This document shows, in pieces, positions 4,768-20,620 of a stretch of DNA of 20,620 nucleotides. The notes below the pieces were generated by a model that searched no databases, was not told where the DNA came from, and saw only the letters and a list, made by a program, of their open reading frames with translations. The DNA is from a virus, in IMG/VR virus record IMGVR_UViG_3300015204_000321, positions 1 to 20,620 of that record; one strand, 5' to 3'. Position 1 is the first letter of the stretch; every line of letters starts with the position of its first letter. A program made the position numbers and the translations under genes.

Positions 4768-5421
4768 TTAGATTACCGGTGCGCTTTTCCAGACGACTTT
4801 ACCGAGGACCGAGAAATCATCTTCGCTGATCAGGAAGGGTTGGTGGGCGCGGTTGCTGGAACAGGGTTCGAACCGGGCGGGGTCGCGGCGGTAACGCTTG
4901 ACGGTTGCTTCGCCGCGGCTGTTGGCGATGAGATAGACGCCGCCAGGGGCCAGTTCTTTCTGGCCGGCATCGACCAGGATCAGGCCGCCGTCTTCGATCA
5001 GCAGATCCATCGAATCGCCACAGACCTCGATCCCGAACACCGACCGCCCGGCGAGGCGGCCAGGTACAGGCATGTGCCCCAACGGCATTTCAACCGCTTC
5101 GCGCCAGCGACCGGCGCCGGCGATGCCGATGACCGGGACGACGCCATAATCGGGCACAAGCCCGGTGGCACCGGTTTCGCGCAGCCGCGCGCTGGCGGAT
5201 TCGGCAGGGAAAGGCGGTGTTTCACTGCCCTGCCCCGGCGCATCAAGGCCAAGCGTGGCGTAAATTGCGGCTGCTTCATCCACGGTAACGCGGCGCTTGC
5301 CCGCCAGCAGGGCAGACACGGCCGACTGGCTGGCAAAGCCCAGATCGTGGGCGAGTTGCGCCTGGCTGAGTGAGCGCGCCTTCATCGTCTGGCGCACAAG
5401 CATGGCATCAAAAGCACGCAT
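4768..5421 (-). CDS. LexA/CI-like phage repressor (HTH + S24 peptidase)
   Basis: This 217-residue transcription repressor should keep the phage operon silent and cleave itself when RecA is activated by DNA damage. An HTH domain lies at about residues 12-60 (SQAQLAHDLGFASQSAVSALLAGKRRVT). The S24 peptidase follows, with catalytic Ser137 in CGDSM and Lys175 in EATVKRY. An Ala-Gly bond in GIAGAG (101-104) lies 33-36 residues before the serine, matching the LexA spacing for the self-cleavage site. AAGGGG stands seven bases before ATG 5421; a second ATG six codons in is less well placed. It is transcribed away from the late genes. The intergenic inverted repeats at 5444-5501 are its likely operators, and one overlaps a possible -10 box for its own gene. 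Confidence 0.93.
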   Translation of the reverse strand: MRAFDAMLVRQTMKARSLSQAQLAHDLGFASQSAVSALLAGKRRVTVDEAAAIYATLGLDAPGQGSETPPFPAESASARLRETGATGLVPDYGVVPVIGIAGAGRWREAVEMPLGHMPVPGRLAGRSVFGIEVCGDSMDLLIEDGGLILVDAGQKELAPGGVYLIANSRGEATVKRYRRDPARFEPCSSNRAHQPFLISEDDFSVLGKVVWKSAPVI

Positions 5422-5527
5422 CAGGCGCCCCTTGCAAGAGTGAGGATCAACCTATTATCAGATTAACCTTGATCCGAAAACTAAATTATATCCATTTTCG
5501 GGCAGTCTCAACTATCATAATATCCGA
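5422..5527. promoter_or_regulatory. phage control region with overlapping operator-like inverted repeats
   Basis: This is the only clearly AT-rich stretch of the prophage and lies between repressor and late operon. GGATCAA (5444-5450) and TTGATCC (5469-5475) form one inverted repeat with an 18-base spacer. CCGAAAA (5474-5480) and TTTTCGG (5495-5501) form a second with a 14-base spacer, and the two overlap by two bases. GATAAT on the minus strand (5454-5459), a possible -10 box of the repressor gene, lies inside the first repeat. TATCAT (5513-5518) and CATAAT (5516-5521) are possible rightward -10 boxes. No good -35 box was found, so exact promoters are uncertain. Confidence 0.5.
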
Positions 5528-5737
5528 TTTTTAGATAGATCGGCGAAATGCAGACCGAACCGCTGAGTCGCCCCCCTCCTCTCCCCGCTGGCGACGGTGA
5601 CGAACGGGCCTGACCCTCGTTGTGCCGGTGGCATCGCTGCTGGCCCCGGCTGCATCGCAAACGACCGTTTCCCCTGACGGCGCATGCGACCTCTGGCGGT
5701 GGGTGCGCCCTTGCGGCGCACCCACCGCCTTTTCCTT
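5528..5737 (+). ncRNA. candidate leader RNA or small RNA ending at the hairpin
   Basis: Together with the control region to its left this forms a gene-free stretch of about 346 bases. GTCGCC (5567-5572) and GGCGAC (5590-5595) can pair and present a 17-base loop made almost wholly of C and T, containing CCCTCCTCTCCCC. Such a loop could pair with ribosome-binding sites. The short palindrome AAACGACCGTTT lies at about 5669-5680, and a strong terminator-like hairpin closes the region. Small RNAs with C/U-rich loops are known in alphaproteobacteria, but I cannot show membership. The start point is a guess. It could instead simply be a 5' leader with an attenuator. Confidence 0.25.
5695..5733 (+). 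terminator. Rho-independent terminator or attenuator
   Basis: GGCGGTGGGTGCGC (5695-5708) pairs perfectly with GCGCACCCACCGCC (5716-5729) around a 7-base loop, and TTTT follows at once, then CCTTT. This is the strongest hairpin I found. It stands upstream of the first rightward phage gene, so it would stop transcripts from the control region unless they read through. Confidence 0.75.
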
Positions 5738-5767
5738 TGGCCACCACAACAGGAGCGCGACAACGTG

Positions 5768-6193
5768 ATGAAAATGGCCAGCAGCAGCCTTGACGCTTAT
5801 TGGGATGGCGAAGTCTTGCGCACGCATCAGCCGTTGCCGATGCCGCCGCACGTGACCGCCGATGCGCTGGGCATGGCCGAGCGCATCGCGTACCGATTGA
5901 TCAATCATGCGGCGGAAAACGACCAGCCTTGCCCGGTCAATATCGATCTGGAGGTGGCCGCCGGGTTCAATTCGAGTTCCATGGGGCCAAAGCTGGTGCG
6001 GAAGCTGGAAAGCCGGGGCCTGATCCGGGTCAGCCGGTTTCAGCGATTTCGGCTGGTTGAAATTGTCGCCACCGGCAAGCAGACCGCGCGGCACCCATCG
6101 ATGCATGGGGAGCGTCCGCTGGTGCGGCGTGGGGCGCGTTCGGCCGCAGCGATGGGATTGCCGAGCGATCGCAAGCCATATGCCGCGCGCTGA
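5768..6193 (+). CDS. winged-helix DNA-binding-like phage protein
   Basis: This 141-residue protein is the first gene of the rightward operon. Residues about 35-103 look like a winged helix: a helix around MAERIAYRLINHAAEN, then a recognition-like GFNSSSMGPKLVRKLESRG and a beta wing LIRVSRFQRFRLVEIV. The last 35 residues are Arg-rich and probably disordered. Possible roles are recognition of phage DNA for packaging, or regulation of the operon; neither is proven. ATG 5768 follows AGGAG by 12 bases. A GTG directly before it (5765) has 9-base spacing and ATG 5774 is a third option. The frame continues open upstream to 5684, across the terminator hairpin, which argues against the longer form. It overlaps the next gene by 14 bases. 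Confidence 0.72.
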   Translation: MKMASSSLDAYWDGEVLRTHQPLPMPPHVTADALGMAERIAYRLINHAAENDQPCPVNIDLEVAAGFNSSSMGPKLVRKLESRGLIRVSRFQRFRLVEIVATGKQTARHPSMHGERPLVRRGARSAAAMGLPSDRKPYAAR

Positions 6194-6515
6194 AACGGTT
6201 GTGCGCAGACCGCGCAAAGTAGCGCCTGTGACGGCGCGGTGTGGCCGCAGCGATGCGGCGGTGGCGCGTACGCATACGGCCGAGGCGCTGGCCACGCTGG
6301 TGGCGATCATGACCAATGGCGATGCCCCCGCGACGGCGCGGGTGAGCGCGGCCAACGCCGTGCTTGACCGGGCATGGGGCAAGCCGCGTCAGGATTTCGA
6401 ATTGTCGAGCGCGGGTGATCCAGTGGCGGCGATCGAGCGGGCGCGGCGGCGGGTGCATCATGAAGATGCGGGCCAGCGGCCACGCGAGGCGGAAGTTGCC
6501 ACCGACCATGGGTAA
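6180..6515 (+). CDS. terminase small subunit-like / packaging protein
   Basis: This 111-residue protein lies directly before the large terminase, the normal place for the small subunit that recognises phage DNA and hands it to the motor. The core HTAEALATLVAIMTNGDAPATARVSAANAVLDRAWGKP is a helical repeat pattern I associate with small packaging proteins of alphaproteobacterial prophages. The N-terminus is basic (MPRAETVVRRPRK) and the C-terminus Arg/His/Glu-rich. I start at ATG 6180, which overlaps the end of the winged-helix gene; the frame is open further left to 6057, but that part reads as shadow sequence. The ribosome-binding site is weak, so translation may be coupled. It overlaps the large terminase start by eight bases. 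Confidence 0.6.
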   Translation: MPRAETVVRRPRKVAPVTARCGRSDAAVARTHTAEALATLVAIMTNGDAPATARVSAANAVLDRAWGKPRQDFELSSAGDPVAAIERARRRVHHEDAGQRPREAEVATDHG

Positions 6516-8034
6516 GGCAAAATTACCAGCCGGCGCCGACCCGGTCGTGACGCTGGCCGAAGACATTGGCGCGTTTACCGCCGATCCATTGGGTTATGCG
6601 ATGTATGCGTTTGGCTGGGGCGAGGGCGATCTGGCGCAAATGGATGGGCCGCGTGCGTGGCAGCGGGCGGTGATGGCGCAGATTGGCGCGCATTTGTCTG
6701 ACCCGGGGCAGAGGTTTCAGCCGCTGCGGATTGCGCGGGCGTCGGGGCATGGCATCGGCAAATCGGCGCTGATCGGGATGCTGGTCAAATGGGCGCTGGA
6801 TACCTGCCCCGATACGCGGGTGATCGTGACCGCCAACACCGAGGCGCAATTGCGCACCAAGACCGCGCCCGAACTGGCCAAGTGGGCGCGGCTGGCGCTG
6901 ACTTCGGACTGGTTTCGCGATTCGGCGACGGCGATGGTTTCGACGATGGGCGGCCATGACAAATCGTGGCGTTGCGATCTGGTGACGTGGAGCGAGTACA
7001 ACACCGAGGCGTTTGCGGGCCTTCACAACCAGGGCAAGCGCATTGTGCTGGTGTTTGATGAAGCATCGGGGATTGCCGACAAGGTCTGGGAAGTGGCGCT
7101 GGGGGCGCTGACCGATGCGGACACCGAAATCATCTGGCTGGCATTTGGCAATCCGACCCATGCCAGCGGCGCGTTTCGCGAATGTTTTGGCCGGTACCGG
7201 GCGCTGTGGTGCGCCGCACAGATCGATGCGCGCGAGGTCGAAGGGACCAACAAGCGCTATCTCGATGAGCTGGTGCGGACGTTTGGCGTGGATTCGGACA
7301 TTGTGCGGGTGCGGGTGCGTGGCCAGTTTCCTTCGGCCAGTGCCATGCAATTTATCGGCCAGACCGAGATTGAAGGCGCGCAGGCGCGCGAGATCGCGCT
7401 GATGGCGGGCGGCGAGCCAGTGATCTTTGGCGTGGATTGTGCGCGCTATGGCGATGATGAGAGCGTTTTGGCGATCCGTTGCGGCGTGGATGCGCGGTCG
7501 CGGCCGTGGCAGGCGTGGCGCGGTACCGATGCGATGAGCCTGGCGGGCGATATCGCGCTGGCCGCGCAAAGGTGGCAGCCCGATGCGATCATGGTCGATG
7601 CCGGGAATATCGGCGCGGCGATCGTCGACCGATTGCGCCAGTTGGTTGGCGATGTGCCGGTGATCGAGGTGTGGTTTGGTGGCGCAGGGCGCGATGCCGA
7701 GCTGGAGCCGGGGGTGGCCGTACATACTGCCAACAAGCGTGCCGAAATCTGGGCGCGGATGCGCGCGTGGCTGCGGCGCGGGGCGATACCCGACCACCCG
7801 CGGCTGCGCGATGATCTGGCCGGGCCAACGTATGGTTTTGCCGCGGACGACACCCGTGTGCGGCTGGAGCGCAAGGTCGACATGAAAAAACGCGGGCTGC
7901 CCAGCCCCGACTGGGCCGATGCGTTGGCCTGTACATTTGCCGAGGCCGTGCTGCCACGACGGGTGCCGAACTGGCTCGACCCCGAGCGGGTGGCGGCGTT
8001 GCGGGACGAGGATCGGTACACCGAACTCGATTGA
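6508..8034 (+). CDS. terL: terminase large subunit
   Basis: This 508-residue motor ATPase and nuclease pumps phage DNA into the prohead and cuts it. The ATPase domain has Walker A SGHGIGKS at 79-86 and Walker B IVLVFDEA at 179-186. The C-terminal RNase H-like nuclease has acidic residues in IFGVDCARYGDDES (D310, D316/317), in IMVDAGNIG (D364) and in PSPDWADAL (D468/D471), as in active enzymes. Length is normal for the family. I chose ATG 6508 because it overlaps the TAA of the preceding gene (ATGGGTAA) and because KLPAGADPVVTLAEDI starts soon after. ATG 6460 is in frame and would add 16 residues. A gap of 73 bases follows. Confidence 0.95.
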   Translation: MGKAKLPAGADPVVTLAEDIGAFTADPLGYAMYAFGWGEGDLAQMDGPRAWQRAVMAQIGAHLSDPGQRFQPLRIARASGHGIGKSALIGMLVKWALDTCPDTRVIVTANTEAQLRTKTAPELAKWARLALTSDWFRDSATAMVSTMGGHDKSWRCDLVTWSEYNTEAFAGLHNQGKRIVLVFDEASGIADKVWEVALGALTDADTEIIWLAFGNPTHASGAFRECFGRYRALWCAAQIDAREVEGTNKRYLDELVRTFGVDSDIVRVRVRGQFPSASAMQFIGQTEIEGAQAREIALMAGGEPVIFGVDCARYGDDESVLAIRCGVDARSRPWQAWRGTDAMSLAGDIALAAQRWQPDAIMVDAGNIGAAIVDRLRQLVGDVPVIEVWFGGAGRDAELEPGVAVHTANKRAEIWARMRAWLRRGAIPDHPRLRDDLAGPTYGFAADDTRVRLERKVDMKKRGLPSPDWADALACTFAEAVLPRRVPNWLDPERVAALRDEDRYTELD

Positions 8035-8107
8035 ACAATCTTGCCTCCCGCGATCCAAACCAGCGCACAGGCGCACTAAACCGTGATTAACCAGACAGGA
8101 GCCAAAC

Positions 8108-8290
8108 ATGTGCAGCACCCCGACGATCCCGACCGTGCCGGTGCGCCAGCCGATGCAATTGCCCGACCAGGGCGGCGCGGCGCGTACTGTTAATCCGCAA
8201 GCGTGGCAGCGCACGGTGCTGGCCGGAATGGTGACCGGGCCGCAAGGCGTGCTGGGATCGCCGACCGTTTCCAATCCCACGCTGGGTTGA
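8108..8290 (+). CDS. small conserved-type phage protein (60 aa)
   Basis: This 60-residue protein sits between large terminase and portal. It begins MCSTPTIPTVPV and is rich in Pro, Gly, Gln and Val, with no membrane segment or known motif. AGGAG lies seven bases before the ATG, one of the best ribosome-binding sites of the operon, which supports it as a real gene. The function is unknown. Its position suggests a minor head or packaging role, but that is inference. Its MC-P start resembles that of the internal virion protein at 16458, which is probably coincidence. Confidence 0.65.
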   Translation: MCSTPTIPTVPVRQPMQLPDQGGAARTVNPQAWQRTVLAGMVTGPQGVLGSPTVSNPTLG

Positions 8291-8304
8291 GGGGCACGCA
8301 CCGC

Positions 8305-9972
8305 ATGAACCGACAAGAGACCCTTCGCAGCCATTGCGAACAGCGACTGGCGCTGATGAAAAATGTGCGGGGCGATTATGAGGCGGAGGCCGAACAGATC
8401 GCCCGCTTTGCCCAACCGGCGCGATCGCGTTTTTTGCGGGGCGGCAAGGACCAGAACGGCGGGCGGCGGCGAATGTGGAACCGCACACTGTTCGACCCGC
8501 ACGGGATCGAGGCGTTTCGCACGTTGACCAATGGCATGACCAGCGGGCTGTCGAGTGCATCGCGACCGTGGTTTACGCTGAAGCTGGCCGATGACCGGCT
8601 GATGGACGCCAATGGCGTGCGGCCCTGGCTATCTGACGTCGAGCGGCGGCTTTATGCGTTTTTTGCGAGTACCAATTTTTATGCGGCGGCCAAATCGGGC
8701 TATGGCGAGATGGGGCTGTTTGGCACCGAAGGCTGTGTCATGGTCGAGCATCGGACCGCCGGCGCGGTGTGCCATGCGCTGACATTCGGCGAATACTGGA
8801 TCGGGCTGTCGGACGCGCTGGTGCCTGATACGCTGTATCGGGTGTGCCCAATGAGCGTGAAGCAGGCGATCGACACCTTTGGCGACGCCTGTTCGCCGGT
8901 GATCCGAGCGTTGTATGATCGCAGCCAGTACGAGGCGGCGGTCGAGATCTATCACGCGATCGAGCCCGATCCCGATTATGACCCGGCGCAATTCGGGGCA
9001 AAGCCGTGGCGGTCGGTCTATTGGGATGCTGCCGATCGATCGGACAGTCTGTTGCGAGTGGCCGGTTATCATGAGCAGCCGTTCTGGGCGCCGCGCTGGG
9101 ATGTGGTGGGCGGTGACACGTATGGCGTTTCGCCGGGGATGGAAGCGCTGCCGGCGCTGCGCGAATTGCAGATGCAGGCCAAGCGGCGCAACGAGGCGAT
9201 CGACCAGATGGTGCGGCCCGAAAAGATCGCGCCGCCCAATGTACGCCTGACCGGGGAGCCGGGGCGGGTCGTCGTTGCAGCCGGGGTCGATCGCGACCAG
9301 ATATTTATTCCGTATCCAATGCCGTATCAGGCGGTGGCGGCGATCGGGCAGGAAATGGACAAGTGCCGGGGGCAGATCGATTCGCTGGCGTTTGCCGATC
9401 TGTTCAACGCGATTACCAACATGGCCGGCATTCAGCCGCGCACGGTAGAGGAAATCGCCGCGCGCAACGAGGAAAAGCTGACCCAGCTGGGCCCGGTGAT
9501 CGAACGCGTGGCCAACGAAAAGCTGCAAGTGGCGATCGAGCGGGCGTTTGGCATCCTGCACCGTGGCGGGATGCTGCCGCCGGTGCCGGTGGCGCTGGCA
9601 AACAGGCCGCTGAATGTCGAATTCGTATCGATACTGCAGCAGATGCAGCGGATGGTAGGCCTTGGCCAGATCGAGCGAGTGGTCGGGTTTGTCGGCAATC
9701 TGGCGGCGGTGCATCCCGACGCGCTGGACATGATCGATTTTGACCAGGCGGTTGATGAATATGGCTATCGCGCCGGGGCGCCGGCGCGGCTGATCCGGCC
9801 GGCCCGCGAAGTTGCGGCCTTGCGCAAGGCGCGCGCGACGCAAGCGGCGACAGCGCAGGCGCTGGCCGCGATGCCGGCGATGAAGGCGGGTGCCGATGCC
9901 GCGCGGCTGCTGGCGGCGACCGATACCGGCAACGGCGACAGCCTGTTGGCGCGGCTGTTGCCACCCGCCTGA
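8305..9972 (+). CDS. portal (head-to-tail connector) protein
   Basis: This 555-residue protein belongs to the podovirus head-to-tail connector family (T7 gp8/BPP-1 type). Twelve copies form the ring at one head vertex through which DNA passes, and it docks terminase and then the tail. Typical stretches are NRTLFDPHGIEAFRTLTNGM and SGLSSASRPWFTLKL near the N-terminus. In the middle lie GYGEMGLFGTEGCVMVE and YGVSPGMEALPALRELQMQA, and the C-terminal part has NMAGIQPRTVEEIAARNEEK followed by PVIERVANEKLQVAIERAFGIL. The tail is Ala-rich. Length is normal. The start is ATG 8305, 14 bases after the previous stop; the open frame to its left (to 8203) overlaps the small gene and is rejected. Confidence 0.93.
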   Translation: MNRQETLRSHCEQRLALMKNVRGDYEAEAEQIARFAQPARSRFLRGGKDQNGGRRRMWNRTLFDPHGIEAFRTLTNGMTSGLSSASRPWFTLKLADDRLMDANGVRPWLSDVERRLYAFFASTNFYAAAKSGYGEMGLFGTEGCVMVEHRTAGAVCHALTFGEYWIGLSDALVPDTLYRVCPMSVKQAIDTFGDACSPVIRALYDRSQYEAAVEIYHAIEPDPDYDPAQFGAKPWRSVYWDAADRSDSLLRVAGYHEQPFWAPRWDVVGGDTYGVSPGMEALPALRELQMQAKRRNEAIDQMVRPEKIAPPNVRLTGEPGRVVVAAGVDRDQIFIPYPMPYQAVAAIGQEMDKCRGQIDSLAFADLFNAITNMAGIQPRTVEEIAARNEEKLTQLGPVIERVANEKLQVAIERAFGILHRGGMLPPVPVALANRPLNVEFVSILQQMQRMVGLGQIERVVGFVGNLAAVHPDALDMIDFDQAVDEYGYRAGAPARLIRPAREVAALRKARATQAATAQALAAMPAMKAGADAARLLAATDTGNGDSLLARLLPPA

Positions 9973-10000
9973 GTGGCGCGTTCTGCATGGGAAATTGTCT

Positions 10001-10345
10001 ATGGGGTTTGACCCGAAGGACGCCGAGTTCCTGCTGACCCGGCCTGAATTTCGCCGGTTTTTGTTTGCCGCGATCCAAAGCGCGGGGATCCTGGGGCAGA
10101 CAGTATCGGCCAGCACGGCACCGATGCGCGATCTGGCCCACCTCGAAGGACGCCGCGCGCTAGGCTTTGATCTGCTGATGCTGGCGCATTCCGGGCAGAG
10201 CGAAGCGGTGCGCAGTGCCGACCCCGATGGGATCACAACGCTAGGGCTCGGCCTGACCGAGGCGCTCAATTACAAGGAAAACCAACGTGAACGAAGCCGT
10301 TCCCGCGACCACACCCGTTACGACGAGATCCCTGACGCCAGCTGA
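10001..10345 (+). CDS. Bbp19-like phage protein
   Basis: This 114-residue protein lies between portal and scaffold. EFLLTRPEFRRFLFAAIQSAGIL followed by LAHLEGRRALGFDLLMLAH matches my memory of the Bbp19-type phage domain (named from Bordetella phage BPP-1): a short repeat-like helical protein with an RR-GL pattern after an early FL-TPE/RP-FRR element. Its exact role is not known to me. The start is ATG 10001, with a weak GGGAA upstream. The last 19 codons overlap the scaffold gene in another frame (59 bases), so the C-terminus, rich in Arg, Asp and Ser, may be dictated by that overlap. Confidence 0.58.
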   Translation: MGFDPKDAEFLLTRPEFRRFLFAAIQSAGILGQTVSASTAPMRDLAHLEGRRALGFDLLMLAHSGQSEAVRSADPDGITTLGLGLTEALNYKENQRERSRSRDHTRYDEIPDAS

Positions 10346-10925
10346 TTCAGCGACGCCGAGCCAGGGTTTGACCGACGCGCCGGCCATTGACCAGCCTGCC
10401 GTGGCACCAGCGCCGCCGCTGTTGCCGCTCGCTGCGCTGACCCCCGAGCGTTATGACCTGACGCTCGAAGGGTTTTCAATCGATCCTGCGCTGATCCAGA
10501 ACGCCGACCCGGTGTTGCGCGATATCGGGCTGAGCAACGATGCAGCCAACAAATTGCTGCCGGTGGCGCGCGATATTATGGCACGCACCCAGGAAAGCGT
10601 TAGGCGGCAGTTTGAGGACGCCGCCGCGGTGCAGAAGCAGAGCTGGCACGCGGCGTATATGGCCGATCCTGAAATCGGTGGCGCGCGGCGGACCGAGACC
10701 GAGCACTTTGCCGCCAAAGGGCTGGATGCGCTGGGTTATGCGCAAGGGCATCCGTTTCGCGCGGCGCTGGATACCAGTGGATTTGGCAACCACCCGGACA
10801 TGATCAGAGCGTTTCGCCGATTGGGCGAGCTGGTTGGCGAGGATGGCAGCTTTGTACGCCCGACGACCGCGCCCAGCCGTAACCAGCCCGTATGGGAACG
10901 GCTCTATCCCAACGAAACACGCTGA
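10287..10925 (+). CDS. capsid scaffolding protein
   Basis: This 212-residue protein stands directly before the major capsid gene, where phages encode the scaffold that guides prohead assembly and leaves before DNA fills the head. About 60 N-terminal residues are Ala/Pro/Thr-rich and probably disordered. The rest is helical, with VQKQSWHAAYMADPEIGG and LGYAQGHPFRAALDTSGFGN before HPDMIRAFRRLGELVGEDG. This D-EIGG ... SGFGNHP-IRAF ... ED pattern is typical of scaffold-type proteins in alphaproteobacterial and BPP-1-like phages. It starts at GTG 10287 with AAGGA eight bases upstream, inside the previous gene. No protease motif is visible. Confidence 0.72.
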   Translation: MNEAVPATTPVTTRSLTPADSATPSQGLTDAPAIDQPAVAPAPPLLPLAALTPERYDLTLEGFSIDPALIQNADPVLRDIGLSNDAANKLLPVARDIMARTQESVRRQFEDAAAVQKQSWHAAYMADPEIGGARRTETEHFAAKGLDALGYAQGHPFRAALDTSGFGNHPDMIRAFRRLGELVGEDGSFVRPTTAPSRNQPVWERLYPNETR

Positions 10926-11061: not shown

Positions 11062-12078
11062 ATGGCCATTCTTGGCAGTTCATACTGGAATCTGATCGAC
11101 GTTTTGAAATCCAGCAGCGATGGCATCGGCGATGTCGTCGAGGCGCTGACCCAACTGACCCCGTTCATGAAAGACGCCAACGTCGTTTCCTGCAACAGCG
11201 GCACCGAGCATCGATCGTCGATCCGCACCGGATTGCCATCGGTGTCGTGGGGCGCGCTGTACCAGGGCATTGCCCAATCGAAGGGCAATTACACCGAAGT
11301 GAAAGACACCACCGGCTTTGTCGAAGGCCTGTCGAGTGTCGATGAGCGGCTGTTGAACCTGAAACCTGCTGAGTCTGCCAAGCTGCGGCTGGTGGAAGGC
11401 CAGGGCTTTCTTGAAGCCATTGCGCAGACCATCGAGAGCGCGATCTGGTATTCGGACGTGAAAGTGAACGGCAAGCAATTCCACGGCATGGGTCCGCGGT
11501 TCAATTCGCATCTCAATCCCAATGTGGTTAATGCGGGCGGGACCGGATCCAACAACGCATCAATCTGGTTTGTGACCCACGGCGACATGCAGACTTCGGC
11601 GATCGTGCCCGACAATATTCCCGGCGGGATCCAGCGCGAAGACATGGGCCGCCAGCGTGTGCTGGATGGCAATGGCAATCCGTTTTATGTCAAAGAGGAA
11701 AAATTTACCCAGCATATCGGGCTGTGCGTCAAGGACTGGCGGTACAACGCGCGGATTGCCAACATCGATGTGCCCAGCGTGGTCGCCGGCACGATCGCGC
11801 TCAACCCCCTGTTGCGTCATGCTTATTACAAGCTGCAGGGCCGCCGTGCATACCGGGTCGAAGCCCAGGGCCAGATCAGCATGGGCCGAACGGTGATTTA
11901 TATGAACCGCACCCTGCTCGAGGCGCTGGACGCCGAAGGCACCAACGCCCGGTCAGGCGTTGACAACTTTGTGCGCCTGACGCCGATGGAAATCCAGGGC
12001 GAGGAAGTGATGACCTGGCGCGGCATGCCGATCCGCGAAACCGATGCGCTGCTGAGCACCGAAACCGTTGTTTCGTAA
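11062..12078 (+). CDS. major capsid protein
   Basis: This 338-residue protein is the head shell subunit, expected to have the HK97 fold. Its place after the scaffold and before the cement protein, its length and its composition fit BPP-1-like major capsid proteins. Characteristic stretches are SSSDGIGDVVEALTQLTPFMKD, TEHRSSIRTGLPSVSWGALYQG, a central IWFVTHGDMQTS, and QHIGLCVKDWRYNARIANID. The C-terminal part has MGRTVIYMNRTLLEAL and MTWRGMPIRETDAL. AAGGAG with eight-base spacing gives it the strongest ribosome-binding site in the window, as expected for the most abundant virion protein. It has untranslated gaps with stem-loops on both sides. Confidence 0.9.
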   Translation: MAILGSSYWNLIDVLKSSSDGIGDVVEALTQLTPFMKDANVVSCNSGTEHRSSIRTGLPSVSWGALYQGIAQSKGNYTEVKDTTGFVEGLSSVDERLLNLKPAESAKLRLVEGQGFLEAIAQTIESAIWYSDVKVNGKQFHGMGPRFNSHLNPNVVNAGGTGSNNASIWFVTHGDMQTSAIVPDNIPGGIQREDMGRQRVLDGNGNPFYVKEEKFTQHIGLCVKDWRYNARIANIDVPSVVAGTIALNPLLRHAYYKLQGRRAYRVEAQGQISMGRTVIYMNRTLLEALDAEGTNARSGVDNFVRLTPMEIQGEEVMTWRGMPIRETDALLSTETVVS

Positions 12079-12799: not shown

Positions 12800-12853
12800 A
12801 GGGCGTCGGGCCCGGTTGGAATGGCTTTTTTCCACGATCGGCCCCGACGCCCT
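12800..12853 (+). terminator. long inverted repeat, possible terminator or processing site
   Basis: AGGGCGTCGGG (12800-12810) is perfectly inverted at CCCGACGCCCT (12843-12853), an 11-base-pair stem with a 32-base loop that contains TTTTTT. No T-run follows the stem, so a classic Rho-independent terminator is not supported. It separates head genes from tail genes and may lower or adjust transcription into the tail block. Confidence 0.35.
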
Positions 12854-12895
12854 CTGGCCAATAAGTACGTAGCTGTTTTTACAGGATTATCCGGC

Positions 12896-13537
12896 ATGAT
12901 GACGCTTGACGATATCTGCAACATGGCTTTGGCGGAGATTGCTGCCGGGCCGATCATGGCGGTGACGGACAATTCAATCGAGGCGCGTGAAGTCAGCCGG
13001 TTTGCAGCGCCGCTGCTTGCCGAAGTTGCGACATGGTCGGACTGGAGCTTTGCGATTGCGCGCGCTGTCCTGATCGCAACCGCCAACGATCGGCCGGCCG
13101 AGTGGATGCAGGCTTATTTTACCCCGGCAAATTGTGTTCGGCCGCTGGCGATCCGTGCGCAGCAGGATGACGCCATGTGCCTGCCGACTGGAGGCCCGTT
13201 TCCGTTTCCGATGCAGGAGGCGGCGCCCCTGGCATTTATGCATGAAGGTGGGCTGGTTTATACCAATGTGGCCAATGCTTCGTTGGTCTTTGCCGCTGCG
13301 CTGACTGATCCGGGTGCCCTGCCGCCTTTGCTGCAGCGGGCGTTTGCGTTGGAACTGGCCGCGCGTGTGGCCATTCCGATCCGCAAGGATACCGCGCTGG
13401 CGCGCGGACTGGCGCAGGCTGCGGAAATCGCGCGGGCGCGGGCGATTGCCGACGATTATAACCAGCGCGTGCGGCGTCCGTCGGGCTATACCAGCGAAGT
13501 GGCATTTGCCCGCGCCGGGATCGGAGCCGGGCTGTGA
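12896..13537 (+). CDS. tail adaptor (tail tubular protein A-like)
   Basis: This 213-residue protein is at the position of the adaptor ring that joins portal to nozzle in podoviruses (T7 gp11-like). The N-terminus MMTLDDICNMALAEIAAGPI matches the usual 'ICN-AL--IG' start. EVSRFAAPLLAEVATWSDWSFAIARAVLI follows, typical of the family (a helix ending in W-FA---). The C-terminal half has LLQRAFALELAARVAIPIRKD and a helix AEIARARAIADDYNQRV. I start at ATG 12896, with AGGA nine bases upstream; ATG 12899 is equally possible. The open frame to the left (12821) crosses the inverted repeat and is rejected. Its TGA overlaps the GTG of the next gene (GTGA). Confidence 0.77.
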   Translation: MMTLDDICNMALAEIAAGPIMAVTDNSIEAREVSRFAAPLLAEVATWSDWSFAIARAVLIATANDRPAEWMQAYFTPANCVRPLAIRAQQDDAMCLPTGGPFPFPMQEAAPLAFMHEGGLVYTNVANASLVFAAALTDPGALPPLLQRAFALELAARVAIPIRKDTALARGLAQAAEIARARAIADDYNQRVRRPSGYTSEVAFARAGIGAGL

Positions 13538-14178
13538 CACCGCGCATCCCCCAGGTCAATTTCAGCAAAGGCGAGCTGGGCCCGCAGCTGTATGGTCGGT
13601 TTGATGTCGATGCGTGGCAATCGGCGCTGCGCCGGGCGCGCAATGTGATCATCATGAAATACGGGGGGGTGACCAAGCGGCCGGGCACTCGTCTGGTTGG
13701 GCCGGTGCTCAATGCGGCGCAGCCGTCCAGGCTGGTGCCTTTTCAGTTTTCCATGACGCAGACTTATGCGCTGGAAATGGGCCAGGGTTATATGGCGCCG
13801 TGCGCGCTGGGCGGGCGCATTCTGGAGAGCGAGCAAGCGGTCACCGCGATCAGCAATGCCACCAATGCGCAAGTGGCGATTGCCTGGCACGGCTATGCGG
13901 CAGGTGACCTGATCTATTTCAGCGGGATCGCCGGCGGCATGGGCGCGCTGATGAATTACCGATCGTGGACAGTGGTTGCGGTTATCGATGCGAACACTTT
14001 GACGATCAGCGCCGACACTTCGGCTTGCCCGACGTTTTCCGGGTGCACCGGGGGCACTGTCAACACCGCACCGCCAGTGGTTATCGCGCCACCTGCTGTG
14101 CCAGTCCCTGCCCCGCCCCCACCGGTGTTGCCGGTGTTCTATGGCGGCGGGCTTGGCGGATTTCGTTTGAAGGATTGA
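13534..14178 (+). CDS. tail nozzle protein, N-terminal part with FCCH-like domain
   Basis: This 214-residue protein has the N-terminus of large podovirus nozzle-type proteins (T7 gp12-like): VNFSKGELGPQLYGRFDVDAW, then RRARNVIIMKYGGVTKRPGTRLVG and LVPFQFSMTQTYALEMGQGY. The strand region that normally runs on into the rest is followed here by an insert (about 101-175) like the FCCH-type domain of phage proteins, with AWHGYAAGDLIYFSGI and WTVVAVIDANTLTIS. It ends in a Pro-rich stretch (180-200) and GGGLGGFRLKD. The missing remainder is the next gene. The start is GTG 13534, which overlaps the adaptor stop, with GGAG upstream. The last codons AAG GAT carry the AAGGA site of the next gene, so both are made separately and probably assemble together. 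Confidence 0.75.
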   Translation: MTPRIPQVNFSKGELGPQLYGRFDVDAWQSALRRARNVIIMKYGGVTKRPGTRLVGPVLNAAQPSRLVPFQFSMTQTYALEMGQGYMAPCALGGRILESEQAVTAISNATNAQVAIAWHGYAAGDLIYFSGIAGGMGALMNYRSWTVVAVIDANTLTISADTSACPTFSGCTGGTVNTAPPVVIAPPAVPVPAPPPPVLPVFYGGGLGGFRLKD

Positions 14179-14182
14179 GCCG

Positions 14183-15985
14183 ATGGGAGCCGCACGCATC
14201 TACAAGGCGGGATCGCCCTATAATGGGGCCGATCTGGCCGAGATCGATTATGAACAGACCAGCGACACGCTGTATATCGCGCACTTGGACTATCCGCCGA
14301 CCAAGCTGGTGCGGGCGGGCAATACCAGCTGGACATTTGCAACGGTGCGGTTTGCGCCGGCGATCTTGCCACCGGGCGGATGCGCGGTGCAGAGCACGAT
14401 TGGCGATACCGATACGGCCAACAACGGGCTGAATTATTTTCCGCAATCGGCGATGTATTGCGTGACGGCGGTGGATGACAACACCACCGAGGAAAGCACT
14501 GCATCACCCGCGGCGAGCGCGTTCAACGATCTGACGCTGAAGCGCAATTGCAACCATCTGTCGTGGCCCGCCGCGCCCCGAGCCACGCGGTATAATGTGT
14601 ATAAAGCCGACAACACCAAGTTTTATGGTTATATCGGCACGACCCGGGCGCTGACGTTTGTCGACGACAACATTGGCCCGGCATATGGCCAGGCACCACC
14701 CTTGGCAAACAATCCGTTTGCCGGTGCGGGCAATTACCCTTCGACCGTTACCTTGTTTCAGCAACGATCGGTCTGGGCCCGTTCGACCCATGTGCCGCAC
14801 GGGATCTGGACATCCAAATCAGGGCTGATCGAGAACCTGGATTATTCAACGCCGTTGCGTGCCAACGACGCCATGAGTTTTGCGATCATGGCCGGGCGGG
14901 TCAATTCGGTGAACCAGTTGACATCGACAAAGGCTTTGCTGGCATTGACCAGCGACGGCGTGTTCAAGATCGACGGTGATGGCGCGGGCAGCCCGATCGA
15001 TGGCGCGCGCCCGCCGGTGATCCAGCGCGAAGTTGGCCGCGGATCAGCGCGATTACCGCCGCTGGTGGTTGATAACGTGGTGTTTTACGTTCCATCAGCC
15101 GGGGCGTCGATCCGCAGCCTCGGGTTTGATTTTGCCATCAATGGCCTGCGCGCGAATGATGTGACGATATTTTCGCCGCACTTTTTTCAGGGCCACACGA
15201 TTGTTTCGTGGTGTTACAGCCAGGAGCCGCGATCGCTGATCTGGGCGGCGCGCAATGACGGCGTCCTGCTGTGCTTTACCTGGGAACAGGAACAGAAAGT
15301 CTGGGGCTGGACCCGGTGCGAGACCAGCGGCAAAGTTTTGTCGGTTTGTTCGATTACCGAGAATGGCGAGGACCGGGTCTATCTGATCGTTGAACGCACG
15401 ATCGCGGGGCAGACCAACCGTTTTATCGAGCGGATGGCATCGCATTTCTGGAACTCGCTGGCCGACTGCTGCTTTGTCGATTGCGCGGTTTCGGCCAGTT
15501 TTGCCACGCCGCAAGCGACCTTTACCGGCCTGTGGCATCTGGAAGGGGCGACCAATGTTGCCGGGCTGGTGGATGGTGTGCCGGTTAGCGGGCTGACGGT
15601 GACCAATGGCACGATTACTTTGCCGGCATCGATCGGCGCCGGGTCGGTGGTTTCGTTCGGCCTGCCTTATGCGGTTGATGTCGAGACCCTGCCGCTGCGC
15701 ATCAACCCGCCCGGAACGGGATCAAACCTTGGCCGGGTGCAGAACCCGGCGCTGGCAGTGCTGACGTTGAGCGCGACTGGCCCGATCAATGCCGGGATTG
15801 GCAGCGAGCAGCTGTTTGCGGTGCGGCCGCGCCCGACCGATCCGGCAGGTGCGTTGCTGGAAGGCGCTTATCCAGTATCGATGGACAACAAGGTGCGCGA
15901 TGAATGCACCGTCTGGATCAACCAGATTGCGCCCTTGCCGTTTACCCTGCTGGGCGTTGCAATCGATCCGGTGATCGGCGGATGA
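14183..15985 (+). CDS. tail nozzle protein, main part
   Basis: This 600-residue protein continues the nozzle where the preceding gene stops. Its start ARIYKAGSPYNGADLAEIDYEQTSDTLYIAHLDYPPTKLVR corresponds to the internal 'YEIATPY-EADL--L-Y-QSAD-LYI-HP-YPP-KL-R' of single-chain homologues. A fibronectin-like part (about 95-165, LSWPAAPRATRYNVYKA) is followed by YPSTVTLFQQRSVWARSTHVPHGIWTSKSG and VNQLTSTKALLALTSDGVFKI. Next come QEPRSLIWAARNDGVLLCFTWEQEQKVWGWTR and the NRFIERM region, and the C-terminus is beta-rich. ATG 14183 has AAGGA eight bases upstream and lies four bases after the previous stop. A stop in this frame at 14168-14170 rules out a simple extension. It overlaps the next gene by four bases (ATGA). 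Confidence 0.77.
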   Translation: MGAARIYKAGSPYNGADLAEIDYEQTSDTLYIAHLDYPPTKLVRAGNTSWTFATVRFAPAILPPGGCAVQSTIGDTDTANNGLNYFPQSAMYCVTAVDDNTTEESTASPAASAFNDLTLKRNCNHLSWPAAPRATRYNVYKADNTKFYGYIGTTRALTFVDDNIGPAYGQAPPLANNPFAGAGNYPSTVTLFQQRSVWARSTHVPHGIWTSKSGLIENLDYSTPLRANDAMSFAIMAGRVNSVNQLTSTKALLALTSDGVFKIDGDGAGSPIDGARPPVIQREVGRGSARLPPLVVDNVVFYVPSAGASIRSLGFDFAINGLRANDVTIFSPHFFQGHTIVSWCYSQEPRSLIWAARNDGVLLCFTWEQEQKVWGWTRCETSGKVLSVCSITENGEDRVYLIVERTIAGQTNRFIERMASHFWNSLADCCFVDCAVSASFATPQATFTGLWHLEGATNVAGLVDGVPVSGLTVTNGTITLPASIGAGSVVSFGLPYAVDVETLPLRINPPGTGSNLGRVQNPALAVLTLSATGPINAGIGSEQLFAVRPRPTDPAGALLEGAYPVSMDNKVRDECTVWINQIAPLPFTLLGVAIDPVIGG

Positions 15986-16458
15986 GCCGGGCCCGTGTGG
16001 CGGTGGCTGTGCGACTGGTTCCCGCGCGGGCCGAGCATGTGCCCGACCTGGCGAGGCGGATGCGGGCAATCGATCGCCTGGAATGTGAAGCGATGGGGCT
16101 GTGTGCCGAGTCAGCGTTGCGCCGCGGGCTGGCGACGAGTGCCCGGACGTGGACCGCGCTGTCAGGTAACGAGGTGCAGGCGATGTTTGGAGTGATTGTC
16201 GTGTCGGCGGCTGATGGCGATGGCATCGCGTGGTTTCTGGGCAGCGATCAGGTTGGCCGCCATGCCCGCCTGATGATTGCCGGGGGGCCGGCTGTCCTGG
16301 CTGAAATGCATCGCTACGCCCGGTGCTTGCGCAATTTCGTGTCCGCAGAAAACCGGCAGGCCATCCGCCTGCTCGAACACTGGGGATTTACCGTGGAACA
16401 GAGGCTTGTCGTGGTGCGTTCGGTCGCGTTTCGGCGTTTCATCCGGGAGACAAAGTGA
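15982..16458 (+). CDS. Gp13-like phage protein with acetyltransferase-type fold
   Basis: This 158-residue protein resembles the T7 Gp13-type family, which has a GNAT-like (acetyltransferase) fold and acts in virion assembly rather than clearly as an enzyme. VRLVPARAEHVPDLARRMRAIDRLECEAMG is the usual start, followed by ALRRGLATSARTWTALSGNEVQAMFGVIVV, then IAWFLGSDQV and a C-terminal RNFVSAENRQAIRLLEHWGFTVEQ. The last segment is the typical 'N-A-IR-L--LGF' motif of GNAT proteins. No acetyl-CoA loop (Q/RxxGxG/A) is obvious, so catalysis is doubtful. It starts with a four-base overlap with the nozzle stop and ends with a one-base overlap with the next gene. Confidence 0.7.
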   Translation: MSRARVAVAVRLVPARAEHVPDLARRMRAIDRLECEAMGLCAESALRRGLATSARTWTALSGNEVQAMFGVIVVSAADGDGIAWFLGSDQVGRHARLMIAGGPAVLAEMHRYARCLRNFVSAENRQAIRLLEHWGFTVEQRLVVVRSVAFRRFIRETK

Positions 16459-17018
16459 TGTGTGCGCCCCTTATTCCGCTGATTGCGACAGGGATCGGTG
16501 CCATTGGTTCCGGCGTCAGCATGGCGGCCCAAATGAGCCAGGCCAGAGCGCAAGCACAAGCGGCCAATGCCAATGCCGCCGCGCAAAGCAATGCTGCGCA
16601 AATCGGCCAGCAGAACATGCGCCAGGCCGCGCTGCAGCAATATCGGCAGATGGCCGATGTGAGCGGTGAGCAGACGATGCTGGCTGCGGCCAGCGGCAAT
16701 GCAACGGGTTATGGCACGGCAGCCAATGCGCTGAACGACACCCGGATTTTGGGCCAGGAAAACGTGGCGCGAATTTATGCGCAGGGTAACCAGAACCTGA
16801 TGGGATCCGACATCGGCGTGGCCAACGATCTGGCCCAGGCATCCGCCGCCAACAGCCGGCGCGACGCTGCGCTGGTGGGAGGACTGTTCAACATTGGTTC
16901 TGGCCTGATTGGCAGCGGGCAAGGCGGCGGTTTGTCATCGCTTTCGCAGGGTGCCGGCGGATCGGCATTGGGTAGCGCAAGCCAGTATGGCCCGTTCAGA
17001 GCGGGGTTGGGGCTGTGA
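16458..17018 (+). CDS. internal virion protein (gp14-like)
   Basis: This 186-residue protein is of the podovirus ejection-core type (T7 gp14 position). It starts MCAPLIPLIATGIGAIGSGVS, a hydrophobic segment (about 4-22) that could enter the membrane of the infected cell. An Ala/Gln/Asn-rich coiled coil follows (about 25-75, SQARAQAQAANANAAAQSNA). The middle has SGNATGYGTAANALNDTRILGQENVARIYAQGNQN. The C-terminal third is Gly/Ser-rich and probably flexible. In T7-type phages such proteins are ejected to form a channel through the cell envelope. GGGAGA lies seven bases before the ATG. One-base overlaps (TGATG) link it to genes on both sides. Confidence 0.7.
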   Translation: MCAPLIPLIATGIGAIGSGVSMAAQMSQARAQAQAANANAAAQSNAAQIGQQNMRQAALQQYRQMADVSGEQTMLAAASGNATGYGTAANALNDTRILGQENVARIYAQGNQNLMGSDIGVANDLAQASAANSRRDAALVGGLFNIGSGLIGSGQGGGLSSLSQGAGGSALGSASQYGPFRAGLGL

Positions 17019-18847
17019 TGCGCGCACCCGGCCTTAACCCCGGTGTGGTGCCGACGCAGCCGTACACGGCACGCTTTTCTGCGCCAAATGGACCCAGTAT
17101 GGCCAATGCCATCGGTGGTGCGCTGGTGGCGGGTGGGGCCGATCTTGGCAGATTGAACGACTGGCGATCGGTTATGGTGGCGCTGGGCGAGGATACCGCC
17201 GGGCGCGCCCGTGCATTGCAGGATCGTGCAACGCTTGACCATTTGATTGCCACCCACGCGGGCCTGCAAGGGGGCGACGCGGTGGCTGCGCAGCCGCAAG
17301 CGATTGACGAGATCGACCGGATCAGGGCGCTGGGGCAAGCAAGCCTTGGATCGCCGGGAATGGTGGCCGCGTATGACCAGCACCTTGACCCGGCGATCGA
17401 ATATGCCACGTCGCGGATTACCGGCCATGCCCTGCAACAAATGGGCGTGGAACGGCAAGCGGTGGCTGACCAGACCATGACCGCTGCGCAGCAATCTGCC
17501 GCGGCGGCGTGGCAGGACCCATCCCGGTTTGTGCAGGGGCTGGGGCAGGTTCATGCACTGGCGATCGGCCAGGCAAGCCCGGAAGCTGGCGATGCAGAGC
17601 GAACAGCGGTTGCGCGATCTGCGGTTGGTGCGACGGTTGCCAAGGCCATCGGACAGGCGCTTGGCGCCGGAGAGCCGGATTTTGCCGCGCATATCGTTGA
17701 CGGCTGGGGCGATACGCTGACACCGGCGGCATATCAGGTGGCGGTGGCGCGGCTTGGGCAATCCGCACAGGCGCAGCGCATGCAATCGATCTTTGCCCAA
17801 GCCGCCGGGGGCAATCCGGCACCAGGCCCGGGTAATGCGCAGACCCTGCCGCCACTGCCTGACATGCTGGTGATGGATGCACCGGCCGGGGCTGCAATTC
17901 ACCCGGTTGCAGGCGGCGTGGTAAGCGCGATCGAGGGCGCGCCGGACAATGCCACGGTGCGCATTTTGCATCCCGATGGCAGCAGCACGGCCTATGGCGG
18001 ACTGGGGCTTGGCGCAGTGACGCCGGGCGATCTGGTAACGCCGTCACATGCGATCGGCAGCGCCGGACCGCAGGTGACGATGACTGCGACCACGCCGACC
18101 GGCGAGCCCGCCGATGCCCTGACCCTGCTGAGCAAGGCCGGTGGGCCCGCAGCACTGATTGGCACAGCGCAAACCGCGCGCAACTGGGACGAGCCGACAA
18201 TGCTAGATCGCATAGCCCAGCGACAGGATATTTCATCCGCCGATCGGGCGTTGGCCGCAAATCTGGCGCAACGACGCATGGCGGCCGACCGGGCACAACA
18301 GACCCTGCAGGATCTGGCCGCAGGCAGGGCAGTGGTGGCCCTGGCAGCAGCTGTGCCGGGTACAGCGATGCAAGCTGCCGATCTGCCGCACGATCTTGTC
18401 GCACAAATGACACCGGCGACGCTTGCCAGCATCGACGGCGCGATGCGCGGTGCGGCCCAGACTGCAACCTTGCCTGCGCCGGACAATGCCACTGCGCTGC
18501 GGCTCGAATTGTTGCAGCGGCAGGCGCCGGCCCAGTTTTCGCAGATCAACCTGGCCCCGTTGATCGGTTTGGTGCATCCGGCAGACTTGTCGAAGCTGGC
18601 CGACAACCAGGCGCGTATTGCCGCTGGGCAGCCTGCCGAGCCGGGTATCGACGTCCGATCGGCAATCCTTGATGCCATGGCGCATCATGAATTCGGCAAT
18701 AGCGCCAGCCTGCCCGATCAGGCGCTACCGGCGATAACGACCCAGGCCGAAACGCTGTTGCGACTGGGCCGGGTCAATCTTGCCGACCGCCCGCTGATCG
18801 ACAGCGCCGTGGCCGATGCGATCCAAACCCACGGTGATTCTGCGTAG
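17018..18847 (+). CDS. internal virion/ejection protein with degenerate M23-like domain
   Basis: This 609-residue protein is at the place of the large core protein (T7 gp15/gp16). It is mostly helical and Ala/Gln-rich. A section at about 293-372 reads like an M23 (lysostaphin-type) peptidase fold: IHPVAGGVVSAIEG, then VRILHPDGSSTAYGGLGLG and VTPGDLVTPSHAIGSAGP. The metal-binding H-x-H before the end is replaced by QVTMTA, and the usual YxHL reads YGGL, so peptidase activity looks lost. No lytic transglycosylase domain is visible. The C-terminal part (about 380-609) is again helical. ATG 17018 overlaps the stop of the preceding gene; a GTG one codon upstream is possible. It is shorter than T7 gp15 plus gp16, so cell-wall opening may rely on other proteins. 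Confidence 0.62.
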   Translation: MRAPGLNPGVVPTQPYTARFSAPNGPSMANAIGGALVAGGADLGRLNDWRSVMVALGEDTAGRARALQDRATLDHLIATHAGLQGGDAVAAQPQAIDEIDRIRALGQASLGSPGMVAAYDQHLDPAIEYATSRITGHALQQMGVERQAVADQTMTAAQQSAAAAWQDPSRFVQGLGQVHALAIGQASPEAGDAERTAVARSAVGATVAKAIGQALGAGEPDFAAHIVDGWGDTLTPAAYQVAVARLGQSAQAQRMQSIFAQAAGGNPAPGPGNAQTLPPLPDMLVMDAPAGAAIHPVAGGVVSAIEGAPDNATVRILHPDGSSTAYGGLGLGAVTPGDLVTPSHAIGSAGPQVTMTATTPTGEPADALTLLSKAGGPAALIGTAQTARNWDEPTMLDRIAQRQDISSADRALAANLAQRRMAADRAQQTLQDLAAGRAVVALAAAVPGTAMQAADLPHDLVAQMTPATLASIDGAMRGAAQTATLPAPDNATALRLELLQRQAPAQFSQINLAPLIGLVHPADLSKLADNQARIAAGQPAEPGIDVRSAILDAMAHHEFGNSASLPDQALPAITTQAETLLRLGRVNLADRPLIDSAVADAIQTHGDSA

Positions 18848-18948: not shown

Positions 18949-19512
18949 ATGGTCGATATCAAGACCCCCAACCTTTTGCCTGGCCTGTCTGGCAATATGG
19001 TTGAAAGACGCCTTGTGGACATGGGCGATGGCACGTTTGCGCCAATGACCGTAACCACGCTGGCCGCGAGCACCAACATTGTCGGTACGGTCAACATCGG
19101 CGCAGTGGGCGGCGCCGCCACCTCGGCCAATCAGGCGATCGGCAATGCTGCGCTGGCCGCAATTGCTGCGCTGTTCGGTGCGGCCACTTCGGCGCCGCTG
19201 ACCGCTGTGATCGGCGATACTGCGGCCCACATTCTGGGGCCATTTTCACCGCAATTGTCGCGGCGGATCTGGTTGACCGTTAATGCCACATCCGCCGCTA
19301 CAGGAACAGCGCAACTGCTGCGATCGAATGATGGTGGCACCACCCGGATCGGGGTGACCCAAAGTGGCAGCATTGCCGGGTCCTATCGTTTTTCCGCGGT
19401 GGCCGGCGCGATCGTCAACGAACCGGTCCTGACTGAAACCGATGCCGGTGCGACCTACTATCTGTCGATAACGCTAACCGCCGGTAGCGTGACCGTGCGC
19501 CTGGCGCAGTGA
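18949..19512 (+). CDS. beta-rich phage surface protein (possible host-contact protein)
   Basis: This 187-residue protein has an N-terminal part rich in Ala, Thr and Gly (about 1-95). The C-terminal beta domain is about 105-187: RRIWLTVNATSAATGTAQLLRSNDGGTTRIGV, then SGSYRF-type strands and PVLTETDAGATYYLSITLTAGSVTVRLAQ. This tail resembles a domain common in prophage proteins of alphaproteobacteria, with the pattern 'G-vqL-RS-DGG' and 'E-GATY-L--T-G-v--R--Q'. Placed after the tail core and before lysis, it is a plausible small appendage or host-contact protein, but no receptor or enzyme function can be assigned. AAGGAG lies seven bases before the ATG. No separate large tail fibre gene is seen in the window. 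Confidence 0.6.
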   Translation: MVDIKTPNLLPGLSGNMVERRLVDMGDGTFAPMTVTTLAASTNIVGTVNIGAVGGAATSANQAIGNAALAAIAALFGAATSAPLTAVIGDTAAHILGPFSPQLSRRIWLTVNATSAATGTAQLLRSNDGGTTRIGVTQSGSIAGSYRFSAVAGAIVNEPVLTETDAGATYYLSITLTAGSVTVRLAQ

Positions 19513-19519
19513 GCGCCCC

Positions 19520-19837
19520 ATGAGTGACTTTGCCCGACCACCCGCCCATGATGCGCACATCACACAGGCGCTCGAACGCGCGGATGCCGCACGACGCGAT
19601 ATCAACCGGGTGGAAGCCGCGCTTGGCGATGGCATCGAGGCCCTGCGCATCGAAATGCAGCTGGGTTTCCACAAACTGACCGAGGAGATCATCAAGCTGC
19701 GGCTGGAAAATGCCAAGCGATCCGGCGCGGAACGGTTGTTCAAATGGCTGTTTACCGCTGCCGTCACGCTAGTTGGCATTCTGTTGACTTTGTTTGCGGC
19801 GGGTTGGGGCGAAATACACCCCCAAGCCCACCCATGA
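19520..19837 (+). CDS. coiled-coil membrane protein of the lysis cassette
   Basis: This 105-residue protein has a long charged helical stretch (about 12-70, probable coiled coil) followed by a single membrane helix at about 76-94 (LFTAAVTLVGILLTLFAAGW) and a short tail. This layout fits membrane proteins near phage lysis genes, for example an antiholin or a spanin-like or pinholin-like helper. None of these can be singled out. The start ATG 19520 lies seven bases after the previous stop with a weak ribosome-binding site. Its stop overlaps the lysozyme start (ATGA), which supports joint expression. Confidence 0.7.
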   Translation: MSDFARPPAHDAHITQALERADAARRDINRVEAALGDGIEALRIEMQLGFHKLTEEIIKLRLENAKRSGAERLFKWLFTAAVTLVGILLTLFAAGWGEIHPQAHP

Positions 19838-20367
19838 GGCCGGTTATGCCCACATTCACCGATGCGCTGGGCATCGTGTTGCGCGAAGAGGGCGGGTTTG
19901 TCGATGATGCCCGCGATCCCGGCGGGGCGACCAACCTGGGCGTGACAGCACGGACATGGCACGCCTGGAGCGGAAAGTGCCCGACCAACGATGCGATGCG
20001 GGCGCTGACGCCGGCTAAAGTTGCGGCCCTGTACAAAAGCTGGTTCTGGGACCGGGTCGCAGGTGACAAATTGCCAACCGCGCTTTCACTCGCCCTGTTC
20101 GATTTTGCGATCAACTGCGGCCCCGGCACTGCGATCAGGACGCTGCAGGCAGTGGTAGGCGCGCCGAAGGATGGCGTGCCCGGCCCAGCCACCCTTGCCG
20201 CGGCGCAAACTTACACCAGCAGGATCGGATTGGCCAAGCTGATTGTCCGATTTAATGATGCGCGTCGCGACCATTATCGCACGCTGCCGACGTTTTGCGT
20301 GTTTGGCAAAGGGTGGTTGGCACGCGTCGACCGGGTCGAGCAGGAGGCACTGACATGGGCTGGATGA
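19834..20367 (+). CDS. endolysin, GH108 lysozyme (muramidase)
   Basis: This 177-residue enzyme should cut peptidoglycan at the end of the phage cycle. The N-terminal domain carries the glycoside hydrolase family 108 signature EEGGFVDDARDPGGATNLGVT, with the likely catalytic Glu19 in EGG. ALYKSWFWDRVAGDKLP follows, and then ALFDFAINCGPGTAIRTLQ. The C-terminal part, with KLIVRFNDARRDHYRTLPTF and FGKGWLARVDRV, is the usual peptidoglycan-binding partner (PG_binding_3 type). No signal peptide is visible, so it needs a holin to leave the cytoplasm. ATG 19834 overlaps the previous stop (ATGA); ATG 19846, with GAGG upstream, is an alternative that would drop four residues. It overlaps the next gene by 13 bases. 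Confidence 0.9.
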   Translation: MRPVMPTFTDALGIVLREEGGFVDDARDPGGATNLGVTARTWHAWSGKCPTNDAMRALTPAKVAALYKSWFWDRVAGDKLPTALSLALFDFAINCGPGTAIRTLQAVVGAPKDGVPGPATLAAAQTYTSRIGLAKLIVRFNDARRDHYRTLPTFCVFGKGWLARVDRVEQEALTWAG

Positions 20368-20620
20368 TGCAGGCGCTGACCGGCGCGGACAACCGGACTG
20401 TTGCAATCGGGCGCCTGATCGGTTTTGCCATCGCCCTGGTCTTGCTGATCGGCCTGCCGATAACCGCGGCGGCAACGATCATCGCCGGACTGGTCAAAGT
20501 AGAAGTGTGGGCAGCGTTCATGGCTGCATTGCAAGTTTACACGCCGCTGGTGGTCGCCGCGATCGGCGGCCTGGTGTGGGGCACCAGTTCGACCGAACCG
20601 CGCCCCGACTGCGACAACGC
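20355..20620 (+). CDS. holin-like membrane protein (partial, cut by window end)
   Basis: Eighty-eight codons are visible and the frame is still open at the window end. The protein has two hydrophobic segments, about 17-46 (AIGRLIGFAIALVLLIGLPI) and 52-76 (WAAFMAALQVYTPLVVAAI), separated by a short charged turn KVE. The end seen is hydrophilic (TSSTEPRPD). Small size, two helices and overlap with the lysozyme gene fit a holin that opens the inner membrane, but other phage membrane proteins look alike. AGGAGG lies eight bases before ATG 20355, which makes the start very likely. Confidence 0.7.
   Translation, partial: MGWMMQALTGADNRTVAIGRLIGFAIALVLLIGLPITAAATIIAGLVKVEVWAAFMAALQVYTPLVVAAIGGLVWGTSSTEPRPDCDN

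Follow-up and report, generated by a model that had tools for sequence, protein, structure and literature searches.

The stretch of DNA analysed here (the window) is an IMG/VR virus record of 20,620 bases whose first 4 kb are host DNA, comprising a tRNA-Val, an AI-2E transporter and a GGDEF-EAL gene, and whose right end truncates the element of interest inside its holin gene. The element itself begins with a gene of 125 aa on the minus strand (4041-4418) and extends to this truncated right end (Table 1). An earlier note on this DNA had taken the repressor as the start of the unit, which needs correcting given that the 125-aa gene, confined to element carriers, lies before it. The gene order proposed there, a repressor, a leader, a DNA-binding-like gene and then terminase, was recovered as an S24 repressor, a 346-base leader and a protein of predicted winged-helix fold (DBP), but a TerS-like gene that overlaps the DBP gene intervenes before the large terminase gene (TerL). 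Full phages likewise have the DBP gene ahead of TerL. Every structural frame of the window is open and its homologues are intact as well, as that note had supposed, and family searches of the window proteins tested gave no match to integration, excision, Cro, recombination or replication families, in agreement with its reading that such genes are absent. The tail tubular B-like protein is split into two genes in every relative mapped. A fold search of the 125-aa protein against the PDB returned no match; its family, known only alongside the elements termed type A below, has an invariant EATRRFRA motif near the C-terminus and an operator in the upstream region of the gene.

Table 1. Features of the window, with the support for each assignment (DBP, DNA-binding-like protein; TerS and TerL, small and large terminase).
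Feature	Position	Strand	Support
tRNA-Val(TAC), host left flank	312..387	-	ARAGORN; Rfam
AI-2E family transporter, host left flank	482..1729	-	Pfam PF01594; syntenic in G001, G005, G012, G177
CHASE4-GGDEF-EAL gene, host left flank	1805..4027	+	Pfam; syntenic in relatives
Small gene, 125 aa, new family	4041..4418	-	intact only in five element carriers of 196 Novosphingobium genomes; AF2 pLDDT 85.5
Operator-like palindrome ATCTGATATTCAGAT, upstream of small gene	4459..4473	.	expected 0.07 matches; conserved
S24 (LexA/CI-type) repressor	4768..5421	-	Peptidase_S24 + HTH, phrog_4
Operator-like array (5454-5467, 5472-5501, 5522-5536)	5454..5536	.	conserved in relatives
Structured leader RNA	5549..5738	+	terminator-like hairpin 5695-5729 and U run at end
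Winged-helix DNA-binding-like protein (DBP), 141 aa	5768..6193	+	AF2 pLDDT 80; weak MarR/LexA-like matches
TerS-like small protein	6180..6515	+	phrog_15261; homologous to a DUF5681 protein in full phage L033
Large terminase (TerL)	6448..8034	+	phrog_2; ATPase and nuclease motifs conserved
Conserved small ORF	8108..8290	+	conservation in mapped relatives
Portal / head-tail adaptor	8302..9972	+	phrog_332; PDB 8ck0 portal, E 7e-106
Conserved ORF, portal-scaffold interval	9926..10345	+	conservation in mapped relatives
Scaffold/protease-position gene	10287..10925	+	phrog_458
Major capsid protein, GP7 family	11062..12078	+	PF20911, E 5e-110; PDB 8cjz, 3j4u, 3j40
Conserved virion-position gene	12171..12608	+	phrog_427
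Small conserved ORF	12593..12790	+	conservation in mapped relatives
Tail tubular A-like protein	12821..13537	+	phrog_394, phrog_9239
Tail tubular B-like, N-terminal gene	13534..14178	+	phrog_376 positions 3-109
Tail tubular B-like, main gene	14183..15985	+	phrog_376 positions 102-707
Internal virion protein	15982..16458	+	phrog_308
Internal virion protein	16455..17018	+	phrog_418
Large virion-position protein, M23-like stretch below Pfam cut-off	17015..18847	+	dN/dS ~0.2
Conserved tail-region gene	18949..19512	+	conservation in relatives; dN/dS
Small gene 5' of endolysin (lysis-accessory position)	19520..19837	+	sequence reading
Endolysin, glycosyl hydrolase 108	19744..20367	+	PF05838, phrog_315
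Holin-like gene, truncated by record end	20355..20620	+	sequence; G001 homologue complete

The Ala-Gly pair, Ser137 and Lys175 of the repressor are kept in 13 of 13 copies and the stretch that holds them aligns to the LexA catalytic domain; the locus is probably SOS induced. Conserved operator-like palindromes lie on either side of the repressor gene, and the operator pattern, searched with at most one mismatch, gave five matches in the five carrier genomes, all of them at the element, whilst the reversed control gave none. The leader folds far better than its shuffles (MFE z -5.0), with changes on both sides in 8 of the 33 pairs of its consensus; it matched no Rfam family and, among the sequences compared, occurs in type A only. 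Since a terminator-like hairpin stands before the DBP gene, attenuation or antitermination is suggested as its mode of action. Together the element-specific operator and leader RNA offer a simple handle on control of the locus.

Searches with the capsid protein matched 59 viral contigs and 18 genome loci, and type A was defined as a compact set with a capsid identity of 88-95% and the same repressor. A capsid match was found in 18 of 196 Novosphingobium genomes and the type A repressor in five, the same five that hold the small gene intact; their clade includes the sequenced isolates Novosphingobium sp. FSW06-99 and Fuku2-ISO-50. In G001, G004 and G005, which are assembled on either side of the cluster (the G004 contig beginning at the small gene), it lies between the same host genes, AI-2E/GGDEF-EAL to the left and an intron-bearing tRNA-Leu, a LOV regulator and folE to the right. 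The left pair adjoins the element in the window, G001, G005 and G177, whilst the right flank of G001, G004 and G005 reads, in order, tRNA-Leu(TAA) with a group I intron, LOV regulator, folE, a FAD gene and purA; the G004 intron scored 49.4 bits, slightly below the Rfam cut-off of 50, and the tRNA was called by ARAGORN. The intron-split tRNA-Leu(TAA) lies where the element ends on the right in L207 (2932-3262) and L223 (1385-1705). In G012 (L210 3506-5033) the small gene and AI-2E are present with no GGDEF-EAL match between them. A tRNA-adjacent site recalls ordinary prophage attachment and so counts against domestication, although a comparison of the left intergenic region with the right boundary yielded no convincing attachment repeats.

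Because the window is truncated on the right, the locus could be an ordinary temperate phage with early genes immediately outside it, as the earlier note had allowed. The relatives with complete right ends contradict this in their own case and make it very improbable for the window, as they pass from lysis and tail-spike genes to tRNA-Leu and host genes. In G001 the holin and tail-spike are followed by host genes and G004 and G005 likewise run into host genes, so the integrase or replication module that might have been sought to the right is absent in all three. Tail-spike and spanin genes, rather than early genes, are what come after the holin in relatives. Integrase matches in G004 and G005, as in G002 and G003, lie on other contigs, and the nearest in G001 is ~145 kb away on the same contig. 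Full-length relatives of 42-47 kb (G204-G207), in contrast, have an integrase match near one end of the record, that of G207 falling below the family cut-off, and the full prophage of N. capsulatus (G025d), the only one read in detail, carries an integrase, repressor, primosomal protein, helicase and primase upstream of DBP. Type A thus lacks the integrase and replication genes alongside structural genes by which a functional temperate phage is recognised.

Synonymous difference between pairs of carriers was similar for the element (pS 0.47-0.54) and its flanks (0.52-0.64), and purifying selection acts on every gene that gave a reliable estimate, a set without TerS (dN/dS ~0.05-0.34). Where a few genes seemed to contain stops, this was ascribed by eye to alignments overrunning gene starts. 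Trees of the right flank and of the element share the split {G004, G005, G012} versus {G001, G177} and disagree inside the first group. The similar pS, the dN/dS values and the trees together argue that the cluster was passed down as part of the chromosome and retained. The comparison of synteny and dN/dS in related genomes, which had been proposed as a check, thus yielded the same host neighbours and constrained genes, and the suggestion of a maintained prophage or domesticated particle gains support from the fixed synteny, the purifying selection and a divergence like that of host genes. Vertical transmission within the host genome, seen here as a shared site, similar divergence and compatible trees, and structural and packaging genes kept under purifying selection in the absence of an integration or replication module are both properties by which gene transfer agents (GTAs) and other viriforms are defined (PMC9662315). 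We regard a maintained, domesticated particle as very likely.

Two further readings were weighed against these data. A defective prophage decaying towards loss would account for G176, where the element is absent and AI-2E, GGDEF-EAL and what is left of the small gene (31 aa) are followed by tRNA-Leu and LOV, with a scar of 77 bases weakly resembling the right end of the element (71% identity). As the small gene is elsewhere intact only alongside the element, G176 is best read as a deletion. No gene is clearly disabled in the assembled copies despite high synonymous divergence, and dN/dS of the packaging and lysis genes is well below 1, so that general decay is improbable. We give no more credence to a helper-dependent element, still mobile, for which another phage would supply integration and replication functions in trans: the lineage does include full phages, and one of these shares its genome with the type B cluster described below, but the site is fixed and orthologous, element and flanks have diverged alike, and no homologue of the G025d helicase was found at E 1e-10 in G001, G004, G005 or G177, G012 having a 34% match elsewhere in its genome.

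Capsid and portal have solved structural relatives in the PDB, those of the capsid with 7 chains per entry, whilst TerL gave chance-level matches only against solved structures. The 7-chain capsid entries and the likeness of the type A capsid to that of the 42-47 kb phages point towards a larger head, which may hold more than the element's own length. As packaging genes are kept without a replicating phage genome, the particles would most likely package host DNA. In the TerS-like protein the core is conserved and the ends vary; the protein matched no HTH family and lacks the DUF5681 N-terminus of its L033 homologue; the want of an HTH was considered as a mark of domestication and is weakened as such, since the homologous protein of the full phage L033 is also HTH-less. 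A lower amino-acid carbon cost of types A and B relative to full phages was small and uncorrected for ancestry, and was set aside.

What such particles do is the point on which the main rival differs. PBSX of Bacillus subtilis, a long-tailed particle, combines SOS-type repressor control with packaging and lysis genes and tail adhesins. By analogy, type A could yield SOS-induced short-tailed particles that carry host DNA and kill competitors, DNA delivery being incidental. The SOS-type repressor and the intact packaging and lysis genes resemble PBSX, a likeness drawn from description, and the tail-spike genes vary in sequence and position among carriers whilst the head genes are conserved, as a killing role would predict. 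Killing without a long tail tube would be unusual, however, and the internal virion proteins, with an expected role in DNA delivery, are under purifying selection, which leaves this alternative unlikely though worth keeping in view. GTA-like delivery of DNA is on balance the probable function.

Our preferred explanation, which we hold to be rather more probable than all its rivals together, is that type A is a particle system of podovirus type which one Novosphingobium clade has domesticated and inherits vertically, SOS-controlled and delivering host DNA to kin in the manner of a GTA. Its ancestor would have been an epsilon15-like temperate phage adjoining the intron-bearing tRNA-Leu gene that lost its integrase and replication genes, selection thereafter retaining the packaging, particle and lysis genes. 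The S24 repressor, bound to operators flanking its own gene, would silence both the small gene to its left and the operon to its right until DNA damage led to its cleavage; transcription would then pass the structured leader, a presumed attenuation or antitermination step, into the genes for DBP, terminase, head, tail and lysis. Lacking phage replication genes, the element would supply no amplified phage genome, the terminase would fill heads with host DNA, and lysis would free short-tailed particles, most likely delivering that DNA to kin. The sequences themselves show that the cluster is inherited, lacks early genes and is under selection, that its catalytic motifs are intact, that the operators are confined to it and that the leader is conserved, whilst SOS induction, the function of the leader, host-DNA cargo and transfer are the conjectural steps of this scheme.

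Type A is not the only such cluster in the genus. Type B, a second cluster without early genes, is fixed in four Novosphingobium genomes (G002, G003, G062 and G025; L103/L105/L112/L116), at a syntenic site between HD-GYP and gloA/mtgA-like genes (names from sequence reading); its TerS is of the Sf6 type, and it lacks the type A repressor. N. capsulatus G025 holds a full prophage and a type B cluster together, with assembly breaks inside both capsid genes (contigs C10/C33 and C25/C22). A tree of four proteins recovered each type as monophyletic, A joining the full phage L033 and B joining other full phages with a support of only 0.62. Early genes were likely lost twice, separately, in the two types. 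More tentatively, and with rather less confidence than we place in type A itself, Novosphingobium may twice independently have made one lineage of epsilon15-like phages into host-owned DNA-delivering particles, which would make these the first GTAs of podovirus type known from Alphaproteobacteria, perhaps carrying phage-sized cargo. No earlier report of the type A locus, or of such an element in Alphaproteobacteria, was found in the literature searched, which covered few subscription journals. The records used here also show that virus catalogues list host-owned loci of this kind as viruses.

The closest known systems are epsilon15/phiV10-like podoviruses with a GP7 capsid, including the 42-47 kb sphingomonad prophages L023, L033 and L037, together with G025d; they share with type A, in matching order, the PF20911 capsid, portal, TerL (48% identity to phiV10-like phages), tail tubular and internal virion genes. 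Neither an integrase nor the helicase, primase and primosomal genes seen in G025d occur in type A, which stays at a single site and has a small gene, operators and a leader RNA of its own. Since the cluster is fixed in a clade that has isolates, full phage relatives and two lineages without early genes, the transition from phage to GTA becomes directly comparable and testable. Among GTAs, which are characterised by vertical inheritance, partial self-packaging and transfer of host DNA packaged largely at random (PMC9662315), RcGTA and RcGTA-like elements (Rhodogtaviriformidae; PMC9662315) are likewise vertically inherited structural clusters under selection; type A differs in its GP7 capsid family, short-tail genes and own phage repressor, RcGTA answering to host regulators, and the RcGTA-type marker GTA_TIM (PF13547) was found in none of 11 genomes whilst the Caulobacter control was positive. 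The type A heads, unlike those of classic small-headed GTAs, may exceed the element's own length; this and the retained phage-type repressor count against the preferred explanation. The one podovirus-like GTA reported so far in the literature searched is FpGTA of Faecalibacterium, called the first of its kind by its authors in 2026, with two operons, ~8.5-9 kb of packaged DNA, ~40 nm heads, a TerS described without an obvious DNA-binding domain and particle production shown (PMC12946183). Like type A it retains short-tailed-phage structural and lysis genes, in its case throughout a genus (PMC12946183), whereas type A, likened to it by description, is a single locus with an S24 repressor.
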